64,000 nt of DNA from Deltaproteobacteria bacterium (GTDB lineage Bacteria; Myxococcota; Myxococcia; Myxococcales; 40CM-4-68-19): contig JANYKT010000102.1 of assembly GCA_025358085.1 (NCBI GenBank), positions 1-64,000 of the forward strand, read 5' to 3'. The position numbers and the translations under genes are program-made. Below are positions 40,855 to 46,781 of the stretch, piece by piece (position 1 is the stretch's first letter; every line of letters starts with the position of its first letter). The notes under the pieces were generated by a model. That model did not search any database and was not told the origin of the DNA. It worked only from the letters and a program-made list of their open reading frames with translations.

Positions 40855-42246
40855 ATGCCCAAGTCTCTGCTCCTCGCCGACGACTCCGTCACCATCCAGC
40901 AGGTCGTCAGCATGATCCTCGCGCGGGAGGACGTCTCTCTGTCGACGGTCGACAACGGCGAGGAAGCGCTCTCACGGGCGCGGGAACTCAAGCCGGACCT
41001 CATCCTCGCCGACGTCAGCATGCCCGGAATCGGCGGCTACGAGCTCTGCCAGAAGATCCGCGCCGACGCCGGGCTGAGGCACACTCCGGTGCTGCTGCTC
41101 GGAGGTGGTGCTCCGGTCGATCTGGCCAAGGCGATTGCCGTAGGGGCGAACGGTCAGATGTCAAAGCCGTTCGACTCCACCAAGTTTATCGATCAGGTGA
41201 AGCATATCCTGGCCAATCCGCAAGCCGTCCCGGCGGCCGCGGCCGGTCCAACACCGGTAGCCGCGCCGAAACCGGCTGCACCGGCAATGCCTCCGCAGGC
41301 TGCGCGGGTACCCTCACCTGCTCCGGCGGTCTCCAAACCTCCAGCGCCAGTTGCACCCCGCCCGGTTGCTGCTCCCGGTGCGAGCGGCGGCACCTTGATG
41401 ATGCCGCGCCTTCCTCCAGCTGCTCCCCCCGGAGGCCCTTCTCGCGCGGCTTCATCCACCGTGCCGGCTGGCGGCCCGCCTCGTCCCCCGCCGTCAACGA
41501 TACCGGCGGGAGCGATCCGTCACGCGCCCTCCGCCGGACCGGCCGGTGCTCCGCGTCCCGCGTCGTTCGCGCCGGCGTCCGGCGGTCCGCCTCGGCCCGC
41601 GACCTCGATGCCCCCGATGGCGCGCCCGCCTGCACCGGCTCCAGCTCCAACCCGGCCTTCGATGCCGCCGGTCCCACGGCCTTCGGTACCCGGTGCTCCT
41701 GCCTCTGCTCCCCCAGGAGCCAGGTTGCCGGCTCCCGCCGCTGCCCCGCGTCCTCCAGCTCCGGGCCTGACTTCTCCCGCTGGGTTGCGACCGTCAATTC
41801 CGGGTGCGCCGCGTCCATCGGTGCCCCCGCCGGCCGCTGCCCGGCCTCCTGCCGCTGCCGCCCCGGGGCCGGCTGCTCCTCCTGTAGCGGCAAGGCCAGC
41901 GGCTCCCGCGCCGAGGCCGCCGCCGGCCAGGCCCGCGGCTCCGCCCGTGGAAGATCTCGAAGACGAGATCATCATGGACGACGAGCCGGTCGAGACACCG
42001 GCTCCGCCGCCCACGCTGCGCTCGGTGCCGCCTCAAGCATCAAAGCCCCCTCCCAGCCTCTCGGTGGTTCCTTCGACCGCCGCGAAGGCTCCGAGCGCCG
42101 ATGGCGGCGAAGCCGTGCTGCGCGAGGCGCTCTCCAGGGCCAGCCGCGAAGTGATCGAGCGCATCGCCTGGGAGGTCGTTCCCGAGCTCGCCGAGACCAT
42201 CATTCGTGAGGAACTCGAGCGGCTGATTAAAGAGCGCGGCGCGTAA
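40855..42246 (+). CDS. Response regulator with a long Pro/Ala linker and a C-terminal helix
   Basis: A 463-residue protein. Residues 1-125 are a receiver: acidic pair Asp9-Asp10, phosphorylatable Asp53 (DLILADVSMPGIGGYELC) and conserved Lys in MSKPF. The usual Thr/Ser after strand 4 is replaced by Gly (VLLLGGGAP). Residues ~125-395 are almost wholly Pro, Ala, Arg and Gly and likely disordered. The last ~45 residues form a conserved amphipathic helix (EALSRASREVIERIAWEVV, then PELAETIIREELERLI). It has no DNA-binding or enzyme domain, so it probably acts by protein-protein contact. RBS GGAGG before ATG. Confidence 0.8.
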   Translation: MPKSLLLADDSVTIQQVVSMILAREDVSLSTVDNGEEALSRARELKPDLILADVSMPGIGGYELCQKIRADAGLRHTPVLLLGGGAPVDLAKAIAVGANGQMSKPFDSTKFIDQVKHILANPQAVPAAAAGPTPVAAPKPAAPAMPPQAARVPSPAPAVSKPPAPVAPRPVAAPGASGGTLMMPRLPPAAPPGGPSRAASSTVPAGGPPRPPPSTIPAGAIRHAPSAGPAGAPRPASFAPASGGPPRPATSMPPMARPPAPAPAPTRPSMPPVPRPSVPGAPASAPPGARLPAPAAAPRPPAPGLTSPAGLRPSIPGAPRPSVPPPAAARPPAAAAPGPAAPPVAARPAAPAPRPPPARPAAPPVEDLEDEIIMDDEPVETPAPPPTLRSVPPQASKPPPSLSVVPSTAAKAPSADGGEAVLREALSRASREVIERIAWEVVPELAETIIREELERLIKERGA

Positions 42247-42336
42247 CCCGCGCGCACTTGCTTTTCGATTATGGTATCTAGCCCGGCGCGTTCCCTAGAG
42301 GGACGCAACGCGCTTTTGCGCTCGCTGGTAAGGGAA

Positions 42337-45300
42337 ATGACCGAGTCAGCTTTTCCGACCGCGGTGGTAACTGGAGGAGAGCCGGCGGCGGCCGCGCCCG
42401 AGCTCGACAAGGGCTACGAGCCAGCCCAGGTCGAAGCTCGCTGGGCACGCTTTTGGGAAGAGCAGGGGCTTTTTCGCGCCGCGGATCAAAGCGACAAGCC
42501 CGCCTACTCAATTGTCCTGCCGCCCCCCAACGTGACAGGCTCGCTGCACCTCGGCCACGCACTCATCGTCGCCCTGCAGGACGTGCTCATCCGCTTCAAG
42601 CGCATGAGCGGCTACAACGCCTGCTGGCTGCCGGGCATCGACCACGCCGGCATTGCCACGCAGATGGTGGTCGAGCGCGATGTGCAAAAGAAGGAAGGCA
42701 AGTCGCGCCACGACCTCGGGCGCGAGGAGTTCCTCAAGCGCGTCTGGGCCTGGAAGGAAGAGCAGGGTTCACGCATCGCGCTGCAGCACCGTGTGCTCGG
42801 CGCCTCGCTGGACTGGGACCGCGAGCGTTTCACCATGGACGAGCAGTCGTCGCGGGCCGTGCGCGAGGCCTTCGTCCGCCTCTATGAGGATGGCCTGCTC
42901 TACCGGGCCGAACGGCTGATCAACTGGTGCGTGCAGGACGGCACCGCGCTCTCCGATCTCGAGGTCGATCACGAAGAGGGCGCGAAGAGCGAGCTCTACA
43001 AGTTCGCTTATCCGCTCGTCGATGGGCAGGGCGAGATCATCGTCGCCACTACCCGCCCCGAAACGATGCTGGGCGACACGGCCATCGCGGTGCATCCGGA
43101 CGACCCCCGCTATAAAGATTTGATCGGCAAGCGCGTCATGCACCCGATCCTGCACCGCACTTTTCCAATCATCGCCGACGCCGATTTGGTCGATCCGACC
43201 TTTGGAACCGGCGCGGTCAAGGTCACGCCCGCGCACAGCTTCGAAGACTTCGAGGTCGGCAAGCGCCACGGGCTGCCCCTGATCAATATCCTCAACCCCG
43301 ACGGCACGCTCAATGGCAACGCGGGCGAGTTCGCGGGGCAGGATCGCATCAAGGTGCGCGCGGCACTGAAGGCGAGGCTCGCCGGGTTGGGCCTCGAACG
43401 CGGCACCGAGCCGCACGTGATGGCGCTGGGCAAGTGCCAGCGGTGCGGCAGCGTGATCGAGCCGCTTCTCAGCAAGCAGTGGTTCGTCAAGACCGCACCG
43501 CTCGCAGCCAAAGTGATCGACGCCACCGAGGCGGGCCGCATCCAGTTCGTGACCGAGAATTGGCGCGACGAGTTCTTTCGCTGGATGCGCAACATTCATG
43601 ACTGGTGCGTCTCGCGCCAGCTCTGGTGGGGCCACCAGATTCCGGCGTGGTTCTGCGACCAGGGTCATGTGACCGTGGCGCGGTCGGCTCCCGCGGCCTG
43701 TGCCGAGTGCGGCAGCGCCCAACTCCAGCAGGACCCCGACGTCCTCGACACCTGGTTTTCCTCGGGCCTGTGGCCGTTTTCGACCTTCGGCTGGCCGGAG
43801 CAGACCCAGGCCTTGCGGACCTTCTATCCGAACTCCGTGCTGGAGACGGGCTTCGACATTCTCTTTTTCTGGGTCGCCCGGATGGCCATGCTCGGCCTCC
43901 ACCTGGTGGGCGAGGTGCCTTTCAGGACCGTCTTTCTCCACGCCATGGTGCGCGACGAGAAGGGCGAGAAGATGTCGAAGTCGCGCGGCAACGTCATCGA
44001 CCCGCTGGACCTGACCGCTACCTACGGCGCCGACGCGCTGCGCTTCACTCTGGCCGCCATGGCCGGGCAGGGCCGCGATATTAAATTGTCGAAAGACCGC
44101 ATCGGCGGTTATCGATCGTTTGCCAACAAGATCTGGAACGCCGCCCGGTTCGTCCTGATGAACGCCGCCGGCCACGACCCCGCGCACCCGGCGCCGCCCG
44201 TCTCTGTCTACGACCGCTGGATCCTGAGCCGCTACCAACGCTGCGCCGACGAGACGCGGCAGGCGCTCGACGAGCTGCGGCTGAGCGATGCGGCGCAGGT
44301 CATTTATCGATTCGTCTGGAATGAGCTGTGCGACTGGGGAATCGAATTGTCGAAACCGGCGCTTTACAATGGCGCTCCCGAAGGCGCGGCGGCGCGGGCC
44401 GGTGCGGTCTCCTCGCTGCTGCAGGCGCTCGAGGGCGCGCTGCGGCTGTTGCACCCGTTCATGCCGTTCGTGACCGAGGAGATCTGGCAGAGGCTTCCGA
44501 AGCAGGACGGCTCTCCAATCTCGATCATGATCGCGCCGTTCCCTCAAGCGAATCCGGAGTTGCTCGATCCGCAGGCCGAAGCTGAGATGGACCTGGTCGC
44601 GCGCGCCATCGACGGCGCCCGCTCGGTGCGCGGAGAAGTGAACCTGCCGCCCAACATGCGAGTGCCCATCGTGCTGATTCCGCGCGATCCGGTGGCGCGG
44701 GCGTTGCTCGAGAAGCACGCGCAGGCCTTCGGTCACCTCGCCAACGCCGAGCCGGTGCGGCTCGAGCAGCCCGGAGCGCCGCGGCCGGCGCAGGCGGCCG
44801 TGCATGTCGAGCCCGAGGTCGAGGTGCATTTGCCGCTCGCGGGCCTGATCGACTTCGCGACCGAGAAGGCGCGCGTCGAGAAGGAGCTGCTCAAGCTCGA
44901 AGGCGAACTCGCCGGCATCGCGAGGCGGCTCGGCAATGCCGGTTTCGTCGAGCGGGCGCCGAAGGAAGTCGTAGAAAAGGATCGCGCTCGCGCGGACGAA
45001 CTCGCAGCGAAGCGGGAAAAGCTTGCGCGCCATCTGGCGCGCGTCACCAGCCGGGAGGGTGCAATGCAGGAAGACAAGAACCCGCAGAACAAGCAGGCCA
45101 GCGACACCGCAGGCCAGACGCCAGAGCAGGGCCATCGCAGCCTGGACCAGATGGGCACCCACGGAGGCCCCGCGGGCCAGACCGGCGGCGCGCAACCGGG
45201 CGGTCAGGAGCAGAAGCCGGCCGAGGCGGCTCCGACCCACGATCATGGCGACGACCATGAGCACGGCGACGAGGAGGGCGAAGAAGGTTTCGCGTCGAAG

Positions 45301-45921
45301 GCCATCAGCAAGGTCAAGTCGATCGCGCGTGCGGTGATGTCCAGGGAACCAGAGGAGGCGAGCGCGGCCTCGGACGATGAGGGTGATGAGCCCGGGAAGG
45401 CGTCTGCCGTTGAGCCGAAGCCTGCGGCCAGGATCGCGGCGGCAAAGGTGGCAGCTGCGAAGATCGTGGCGGCGAAGCCTGCGCCCAAGGCGGCGGTGCC
45501 TCCGAAGGCGACGGCGGCCGTCAAGCCCGCTGCAGCAAAGTCTTCAAAGCCCGGTGCCAGGCCCGTGGCCGCGAAGCTTGCTGCGGCCAAGTCTGCGAAG
45601 CCCGCGGCGAAGTCCGCGCCGGCGAAGTCCTCGAAGAAGCCCGCGAAAGCCGCCGCAGCGAAGTCTTCGAAGCCGGCCCAAAAGTCAGCCTCCAGCAAGG
45701 CGGCCGCGAAGCCCGCGGCGAAGAACCGCCCGACGGGCAAGGGAAAGCCTGGGCCCAAGGCGAAGGCGGCGCCAAAGTCGAAGGTGGCGGCAAAGAAGCC
45801 CGGCCCCAAGGGCAGCGCGAAAACTGGCAAGAAGGCCAAGGGACCAGCCAGGAAGGCCGGCAAGGCGACCAAGGGCGCAGCGAAGAAATCGAAGCCCGCA
45901 CCGCGCAAGGGCAAGCGGTAG
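42337..45921 (+). CDS. valS: Valyl-tRNA synthetase with a histone-H1-like C-terminal extension
   Basis: Charges tRNA-Val. Residues 1-~905 are a normal class I ValRS. The HIGH motif appears as SLHLGHA near residue 70 and KMSKS in GEKMSKSRGN near 545, with the CP1 editing domain (TTRPETMLGDTA), a zinc-like CQRCGSV and CAECGSA, anticodon domain and C-terminal coiled-coil arm (EKELLKLEGELAGIARRL). Where ValRS usually stops, the frame continues for ~285 residues. There is a Gln/Gly-rich linker, an acidic His-rich patch (HDHGDDHEHGDEEGEE), then a Lys/Ala/Pro-rich tail of histone-H1 style. The start at 42337 was chosen for AAGGG upstream; 42271 is an alternative. Confidence 0.95.
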   Translation: MTESAFPTAVVTGGEPAAAAPELDKGYEPAQVEARWARFWEEQGLFRAADQSDKPAYSIVLPPPNVTGSLHLGHALIVALQDVLIRFKRMSGYNACWLPGIDHAGIATQMVVERDVQKKEGKSRHDLGREEFLKRVWAWKEEQGSRIALQHRVLGASLDWDRERFTMDEQSSRAVREAFVRLYEDGLLYRAERLINWCVQDGTALSDLEVDHEEGAKSELYKFAYPLVDGQGEIIVATTRPETMLGDTAIAVHPDDPRYKDLIGKRVMHPILHRTFPIIADADLVDPTFGTGAVKVTPAHSFEDFEVGKRHGLPLINILNPDGTLNGNAGEFAGQDRIKVRAALKARLAGLGLERGTEPHVMALGKCQRCGSVIEPLLSKQWFVKTAPLAAKVIDATEAGRIQFVTENWRDEFFRWMRNIHDWCVSRQLWWGHQIPAWFCDQGHVTVARSAPAACAECGSAQLQQDPDVLDTWFSSGLWPFSTFGWPEQTQALRTFYPNSVLETGFDILFFWVARMAMLGLHLVGEVPFRTVFLHAMVRDEKGEKMSKSRGNVIDPLDLTATYGADALRFTLAAMAGQGRDIKLSKDRIGGYRSFANKIWNAARFVLMNAAGHDPAHPAPPVSVYDRWILSRYQRCADETRQALDELRLSDAAQVIYRFVWNELCDWGIELSKPALYNGAPEGAAARAGAVSSLLQALEGALRLLHPFMPFVTEEIWQRLPKQDGSPISIMIAPFPQANPELLDPQAEAEMDLVARAIDGARSVRGEVNLPPNMRVPIVLIPRDPVARALLEKHAQAFGHLANAEPVRLEQPGAPRPAQAAVHVEPEVEVHLPLAGLIDFATEKARVEKELLKLEGELAGIARRLGNAGFVERAPKEVVEKDRARADELAAKREKLARHLARVTSREGAMQEDKNPQNKQASDTAGQTPEQGHRSLDQMGTHGGPAGQTGGAQPGGQEQKPAEAAPTHDHGDDHEHGDEEGEEGFASKAISKVKSIARAVMSREPEEASAASDDEGDEPGKASAVEPKPAARIAAAKVAAAKIVAAKPAPKAAVPPKATAAVKPAAAKSSKPGARPVAAKLAAAKSAKPAAKSAPAKSSKKPAKAAAAKSSKPAQKSASSKAAAKPAAKNRPTGKGKPGPKAKAAPKSKVAAKKPGPKGSAKTGKKAKGPARKAGKATKGAAKKSKPAPRKGKR
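45064..45921 (+). other. Possible separately translated histone-H1-like protein inside valS frame
   Basis: An in-frame ATG at 45064 has a strong ribosome-binding site GGGAGGG ending 4 bases before it, at the very point where ValRS ends. It would give a 285-residue protein with an acidic His-rich region and a ~160-residue Lys/Ala/Pro tail, like H1-type DNA-binding proteins (AlgP, Hc1 and myxobacterial H1-like proteins). There is no stop between ValRS and this start, so both fused and free forms are possible. Confidence 0.6.
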
Positions 45922-45923
45922 CC

Positions 45924-46781
45924 GTGGCGCTCGACCTGGGGCGGCCTGACGACGCTGTCGGCCGCCTCATCGCGCTTGCGCTCGAGGAAGACGTCGGCCC
46001 GGGCGATCGCACTGCCGAGGCTTGCGTCGCCGAGAATGCGCGCGGCACGGCGCGCATCGTCGTCAAGGAATCGCTGGTGCTCTCGGGCCTCGCGGCGGCA
46101 GCGCGCGTCTTCCGTGCGCTTGACCCGGAGTGCGAACTCGAGCCGCTCGCGGCAGAGGGAGACTCGCTCGATCCCGGCGCCGGGGTCCTGCGCGTGCGCG
46201 GCAGCCTGCGGGCGCTGCTCACCGCTGAGCGCACCGCGCTCAATTTGCTGCAGCGCCTCTCCGGAATCGCCACCAAGACGCGGCTCTTCGCCGACGCGCT
46301 TCGCGGAACAAGAACGCGGCTGCTTGACACGCGCAAGACCACGCCGGGCCTGCGCCAGCTGGAGAAGGCCGCGGTGCGCGCGGGGGGCGGTTTCAATCAC
46401 CGCGGCGCGCTCTTCGACGGCATTCTGGTCAAGGACAACCACGCGGCGGCTGCCGGCAGCATCGGCGAGGCGGTGCGGCGCGCGAGGGCCCACGCCTCGC
46501 CGCTCTTGCTGGTCGAGGCCGAGGTCTCAACGCCTGCACAGATCGAAGAAGCGCTCGTGGCCGGCGCGCAGATGCTCCTGCTCGACAACCTGGGTGACGA
46601 GGAGCTCGCCGCGGCGGTGAGGCAGGTCGCGGGCCGGGTACCCACCGAGGCGAGCGGAGGCATGACGCTGACCCGCCTCCCCCTCGTCGCGGCCTGCGGG
46701 GTAGACTACGTCTCCGTGGGCGCTCTCACTCATTCAGCAGTCGCCGTCGACTTGAGCCTTCTCATCGAGACGAACGCTTGA
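45924..46781 (+). CDS. nadC: Nicotinate-nucleotide pyrophosphorylase (quinolinate phosphoribosyltransferase)
   Basis: Converts quinolinate and PRPP to nicotinate mononucleotide in NAD synthesis. EEDVGPGDRTAEA, LNLLQRLSGIATKT, LDTRKTTPGLRQLEKAAVRAG, NHRGALFDGILVKDNH and EASGGMTL are the signature segments with the substrate Arg, Lys and His. GTG start at 45924, 2 bases after the valS stop; 285 residues is typical. Its end overlaps birA as TTGA. No nadA or nadB is in the window. Confidence 0.96.
   Translation: MALDLGRPDDAVGRLIALALEEDVGPGDRTAEACVAENARGTARIVVKESLVLSGLAAAARVFRALDPECELEPLAAEGDSLDPGAGVLRVRGSLRALLTAERTALNLLQRLSGIATKTRLFADALRGTRTRLLDTRKTTPGLRQLEKAAVRAGGGFNHRGALFDGILVKDNHAAAAGSIGEAVRRARAHASPLLLVEAEVSTPAQIEEALVAGAQMLLLDNLGDEELAAAVRQVAGRVPTEASGGMTLTRLPLVAACGVDYVSVGALTHSAVAVDLSLLIETNA

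Follow-up and report, generated by a model that had tools for sequence, protein, structure and literature searches.

The reading frame of a valyl-tRNA synthetase (ValRS) gene from a member of the Myxococcales runs past the usual C-terminus of the enzyme and into a histone-H1-like tail. This raises the question of whether the locus encodes one fused protein, a separate H1-like protein, or both. The analysis was based on a 64,000-nucleotide stretch of contig JANYKT010000102.1 (positions 1 to 64,000, forward strand), referred to as the window, and on comparison with related genomes. We consider it probable that the single open reading frame (ORF) is a merged operon pair, valS plus h1 followed by nadC, that yields a ValRS-H1 fusion as well as a free H1-like protein.

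Reading frame of valS and its extension

The following features of the window define the frame:

42337..45063, + strand: ValRS core, valS; 909 aa from the ATG at 42337; matches TIGR00422, PF00133, PF08264 and PF10458
45064..45921, + strand: H1-like tail and putative nested cistron; 285 aa, 28.2 kDa, pI 10.3 (from composition)
45924..46781, + strand: nadC, following in the operon; GTG start 2 nt past the tail stop; TIGR00078 at 300 bits

A second in-frame ATG for valS is found upstream at 42271. Translation from either start (42271/42337-45921, + strand) gave a single open frame with no internal stop, ending at the stop codon at 45919-45921 and comprising 1216 aa when counted from 42271. In profile searches the ORF scored 1063 bits against TIGR00422 (cut-off 612), as expected of a valyl-tRNA synthetase. 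The catalytic domain (PF00133), the anticodon-binding domain (PF08264) and the tRNA-binding arm (PF10458) were all matched in Pfam/NCBIfam, so the ValRS is complete up to the junction. Numbered from 42271, the tRNA-binding arm occupies residues 861-924 and codon 932 is the ATG at 45064, which encodes the first residue of the tail. A preliminary description of this DNA, made from the sequence alone, had read the frame (42337-45921) as open for about 285 residues beyond the usual C-terminus and had placed the junction around 45040-45070; the coordinates, the tail length and the junction were all borne out. In the window's genome no stop codon separates the two parts, which share one frame, and a strong Shine-Dalgarno (SD) sequence and an ATG are present at the first residue of the second.

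Directly upstream of valS, window positions 40855-42246 encode a response-regulator receiver domain, a long Pro/Ala-rich linker and a short C-terminus.

Composition of the tail

The tail was divided into the following segments:

45130..45171, + strand: short motif GHRSLDQMGTHGGP, common to most tails of the window's family (L113-L115, L117, L118, L120)
45235..45285, + strand: acidic, His-rich patch THDHGDDHEHGDEEGEE, from the translation
45289..45348, + strand: segment FASKAISKVKSIARAVMSRE; a similar KAxSxVKSIAR occurs in several tails of the family (L039, L087, L088, L004)
45424..45918, + strand: Lys/Ala/Pro H1-like domain, tail residues 121-285; 165 aa with 43 K, 55 A, 21 P and no D/E, pI 12

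The order of an acidic, His-rich patch and then a Lys/Ala/Pro-rich H1-like tail agreed with the preliminary description. The GHRSLDQMGTHGGP motif sits within a polar stretch at the start of the tail. The window's version of the KAxSxVKSIAR segment is KAISKVKSIAR, a short element that follows the acidic/His patch. The basic, Lys/Ala/Pro-rich C-terminal domain by which bacterial H1-like proteins (HC2, AlgP, PhaF) are recognized is present in the window tail. Profile searches with the tail alone returned no Pfam or NCBIfam family. PF07382 (HC2) did not reach the Pfam gathering threshold, since the window tail matched no family and a Myxococcus tail scored 22.6 bits against the required 40. An apolipoprotein match of the L002 tail and extensin matches were discarded as low-complexity hits under the cut-off. 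Within the window's own genome the tail was its sole match at E<=1, with no further copies. The tail is expected to be disordered. Judged solely from its Lys/Ala/Pro composition, it is most likely a non-specific binder of nucleic acid or other polyanions (DNA, rRNA or tRNA, polyphosphate), as free H1-like bacterial proteins are.

The GHRSLDQMGTHGGP motif was not seen in tails from families other than the window's. Many Myxococcaceae tails (L014-L027, L033, L042, L153-L181) contain a single, strongly conserved TPR-like module between ValRS and the Lys/Ala/Pro part, with the sequence ALxKLREGTKEGLSxxDHxDLGVAYMxMGLVDDAxREF; the window's tail is without it. This module was dropped as evidence of homology. 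Its TPR matches were weak and sub-cut-off, and an HMM of the Myxococcus tail module matched neither the separate genes of family f10 (described below) nor the other tails tested.

Distribution across the order and phylum

For comparison of the junction, 80 relatives of the ValRS core were retrieved, and the junction DNA was read in 117 genomes from surveys of the window's order (Myxococcales) and phylum. Among 97 junctions from the order, the tail was fused in 82, separate in 2 and absent in 12, and the frame was broken within the tail in 1. The tail gene was separate in both genomes (2/2) of family f10, a neighbour within the class, and none of 18 genomes from the rest of the phylum had a fused tail. 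ORFs from Acidobacteria, Rokubacteria, Nitrospirae and Synergistaceae stopped at the usual ValRS end. Complete fused tails ranged from 73 to 424 aa. The five nearest relatives all had a junction open into a tail, as did Myxococcus, Corallococcus, Archangium and Anaeromyxobacter. The check for the same fusion in relatives that the preliminary description had proposed was thus positive, and the ValRS-tail fusion is confirmed as a trait of the order.

These counts bear on the simplest alternative, that the open junction reflects mis-assembly or the loss of a stop codon in this assembly only. The window's genome is a draft in 217 contigs, and in a single-contig relative (G103) the frame does break inside the tail, both of which would fit such an artefact. 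However, the same open junction was found in 82 genomes, single-contig genomes and finished chromosomes included. An assembly error or lost stop at the junction was ruled out by these relatives, and we regard an artefact of this kind as exceedingly improbable. In G103 (locus L177) the break lies about 39 residues into the tail and the remainder is in another frame, through either a sequencing error or a real loss of the fusion.

Fused or separate, the tail lay between valS and nadC in every case in which the gene downstream was checked. In most tail-less members of the order for which nadC was located, this gene directly adjoins valS or overlaps it by approximately 10 nt; no separate Lys-rich ORF was found between the two. 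A ValRS tree built by a quick method required several changes of state, with the separate pair (genus g35) as sister to a fused genome. Most of the fused pairs tested showed purifying selection on the tail (dN/dS 0.2-0.41); one pair of 50 codons gave about 1.0.

Several individual loci were noted. L082 was considered as a split locus and rejected; the apparent internal stop is where the tail normally ends, and the sequence there matches L002. Two Myxococcaceae-family genomes (G080, G082) carry a second, distant ValRS without a tail (L176, L195; about 40% identity to the window's). L156 (genome G139) has no fused tail and a 358-nt gap between valS and nadC, in which a repetitive, Lys/Glu-containing reading in other frames is perhaps a decayed or frameshifted tail. 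L056 (BNCN01000007.1, 'Comamonas sp. KCTC 72670') grouped within Myxococcus in the tree by both ValRS and tail, and the public record seems to be mislabelled or contaminated.

Relatives with a separate tail gene

In the two species of g35 (G122, G123), valS ends in SRI-TGA and is followed by CCTGGAGGAACG-ATG, which retains the SD and start seen in the fused genes, and a Lys/Arg-rich gene. The start ATG of this gene is at the position homologous to the window's ATG at 45064, and its N-terminus (MSERTPEEM) is nearly identical to the corresponding sequence of the closest fused relative, G086 (RIKPEGT-MSEKTPEEM). A dN/dS of approximately 0.41 between the tail genes of the two species suggests that they are translated. 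Because the stop lies upstream, translation would begin at the gene's own start, barring read-through of the TGA.

Both f10 genomes have a separate Lys-rich gene between valS and nadC, which follows an in-frame TGA in G161 and lies in another frame with an ATGA overlap in G160. From position and composition only, we infer that these genes are homologous to the fused tails. The preliminary description had held that finding valS and the H1-like gene separate in relatives would refute a fusion. This separation exists in g35 and f10 but does not extend to the window's own lineage.

Internal Shine-Dalgarno sequence and proposed start codon

The putative initiation site of the tail comprises two features:

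45053..45059, + strand: internal SD sequence GGGAGGG, with GGAGG at 45054-45058, 5 nt before the ATG; anti-SD duplex -10.8 kcal/mol
45064..45066, + strand: internal in-frame ATG, tail codon 1 and proposed start of the free H1-like protein; the Met is conserved in relatives

Among the in-frame ATGs of the ORF, an SD-like sequence is present at 45064 only. Its anti-SD pairing (-10.8 kcal/mol) compares with -5.4 kcal/mol at the next-best in-frame ATG, -9.5 for groEL, -10.2 for the response regulator, -5.2 for nadC and a weak -3.3 for the valS start itself. Local RNA structure at this ATG is slight, the second-weakest among 21 in-frame ATGs. The preliminary description, while correct in recognizing a ValRS-H1-like fusion, had missed this start site.

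In relatives, GGAGG or AGGAG was present at the tail Met in 28/35 fused genomes with a Met close to the junction vs 6/197 other in-frame ATGs (Fisher 7e-24, a value that is indicative only, as the rows are related). A strong SD and a Met near the start of the tail were found in all ten genomes read in the window's family, in 15/17 tailed genomes of the Anaeromyxobacter-like family f2, in the one f3 genome and in 7 genomes of the Myxococcaceae (f6). Each of the three codon phases is represented among the motifs, which overlie differing residues (RR, EE, EG, GG, ED) and lie behind linkers of varied length. In nine Anaeromyxobacter-like genomes the SD is always AGG AGG, and AGG accounts for only 3/296 Arg codons in the four ValRS cores checked. 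This recurrence in varied phases, residues and linkers, together with the rare AGG AGG codons, looks like selection on a ribosome-binding site. Synonymous shuffling gave P = 0.001-0.036 for the SD in the Anaeromyxobacter-like family and a suggestive P of 0.03 in one f3 genome. In the window's own family the SD overlies a Glu codon and was not singled out (P_syn 0.24-0.96); only the Anaeromyxobacter-like family therefore offers a strong argument from selection, and the f3 genome a suggestive one. The locus does share with dual-product genes of the infB type a conserved in-frame internal SD and start codon.

Not every fused genome has such a start. A good internal start was lacking in 34/82 and the SD was weak in 15/82; these genomes would make little or no free tail, and the free form is thus not universally needed. 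Much of the Myxococcaceae would carry the tail mainly or exclusively as part of ValRS.

Two single-product explanations were weighed against these data. In one, only the fusion is made; the SD and ATG are a relic of an ancestral start, and the tail is an appended tRNA/RNA-binding or localisation domain, comparable to the Lys-rich extensions of eukaryotic synthetases. Retention of the tail in the 34 genomes without a usable internal start agrees with this, as do the purifying selection seen in most fused pairs and the binding of nucleic acid by the appended domain of human LysRS (PMC6213541). A relic does not readily explain why a strong SD persists in lineages with diverged linkers, or why the Anaeromyxobacter-like family writes it in rare AGG AGG codons; g35 and f10 possess an H1-like gene yet are unfused. 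We consider this explanation unlikely. In the other, the separate H1-like protein is the functional product and the fusion is a side effect of stop-codon loss that the cell tolerates. The internal SD is far above that of valS in strength and the tail gene stands alone in g35 and f10, as this would predict; many Myxococcaceae without an internal start nevertheless keep a fused tail, often plus the TPR-like module, and we judge it the less probable of the two.

Proposed products of the locus

We favour the production of both proteins. The reading of the gene arrangement as two cistrons merged in frame with the second start retained is well supported, and two proteins from one gene are likely. 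The ancestral layout may have been a valS-h1-nadC operon, of which the first two cistrons became joined in frame. Ribosomes initiating at valS would produce a ValRS-H1 fusion of approximately 129 kDa, and those initiating at 45064 a free H1-like protein of 28 kDa. The tail on the fused copy could keep part of the ValRS pool close to tRNA, ribosomes or the nucleoid. The proposal of the preliminary description, a fused tail holding nucleic acid near the enzyme, would then be half of the likely picture, with a free H1-like protein probably also made. In the window's organism there may be more of the free form than of the fusion, because the internal SD is much stronger than that of valS. The fusion itself appears to be tolerated or useful, since over half of the fused genomes are without a strong internal start.

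A broader reading is that, across the order, the essential valS gene doubles as the gene for a free H1-like protein. A nested, selected start would then supply this independent protein beside a ValRS tethered to nucleic acid, the pair would have switched among the fused, nested and split arrangements inside a single class, and tRNA charging would be tied to nucleoid or ribosome organisation. We hold this only tentatively and lean slightly against it.

At this locus two adjacent genes of an operon, whose products are unrelated, are joined in frame, yet the second retains its own start. Separate, nested and fully fused states coexist in one class, in cultured and uncultured members, so that gene fusion by successive steps can be tested directly. 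Annotation of the longest ORF only would conceal the short product. The arrangement also raises the question of why myxobacteria carry an H1-like polycation on ValRS, or translate one from inside valS.

Comparison with known systems

Added domains on synthetases are known. In cyanobacteria, CAAD-ValRS carries an extra lineage-specific domain for thylakoid anchoring (PMC4893482). The likeness is of a bacterial ValRS with an added lineage-specific domain, which in CAAD-ValRS changes the location of the enzyme (PMC4893482); the CAAD domain is membrane-anchoring, whereas the window tail is polycationic and its junction has a start site of its own. No Pfam match to CAAD was found in the 1216-aa ORF. 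Human LysRS has a disordered appended domain that binds nucleic acid (PMC6213541). It resembles the present case in being a disordered region appended to a tRNA synthetase, although nucleic-acid binding was observed for LysRS and is by analogy only for the window tail. The LysRS domain is N-terminal, eukaryotic and part of the enzyme; the window tail is C-terminal, bacterial and H1-like, and is elsewhere a separate gene.

AlgP and PhaF of Pseudomonas are histone-H1-like proteins with an N-terminal part and a KPAA-rich C-terminal domain (PMC9239181). In Anaeromyxobacter-like tails and those of L002 and L005, a KPAA-type domain similarly follows a stretch that is Ala-rich and probably helical. 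This likeness is one of composition, with no sequence homology shown beyond it, and AlgP and PhaF are stand-alone genes that are not merged with a synthetase.

In infB, several starts in one frame give long and short proteins that share a C-terminus (IF2-1/2/3; PMC3334882), and in-frame internal starts have been documented at genome scale (PMC11005335). The short forms from infB are still initiation factors, whereas the short form proposed here would differ in kind, as an H1-like protein, and some relatives encode ValRS and the tail in separate genes. Appended ValRS domains and in-frame internal starts are thus known kinds; their combination, and the fused/nested/split series, appear to be new.

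The preliminary description knew of no ValRS-H1 fusion. No report of one, or of a myxobacterial ValRS tail, was found in the open-access papers searched. The claim held for these papers but not for the family databases, as NCBIfam NF011492/PRK14900 (valine--tRNA ligase, 1044 positions) already spans such a tail, its last ~140 positions matching the Anaeromyxobacter type. The window scored 1429 bits against this model (aligned 43-1132 / 7-1041), below the cut-off of 1783. PRK14900 is a naming model only and assigns the tail no function; by this model, tailed ValRS had already been catalogued.
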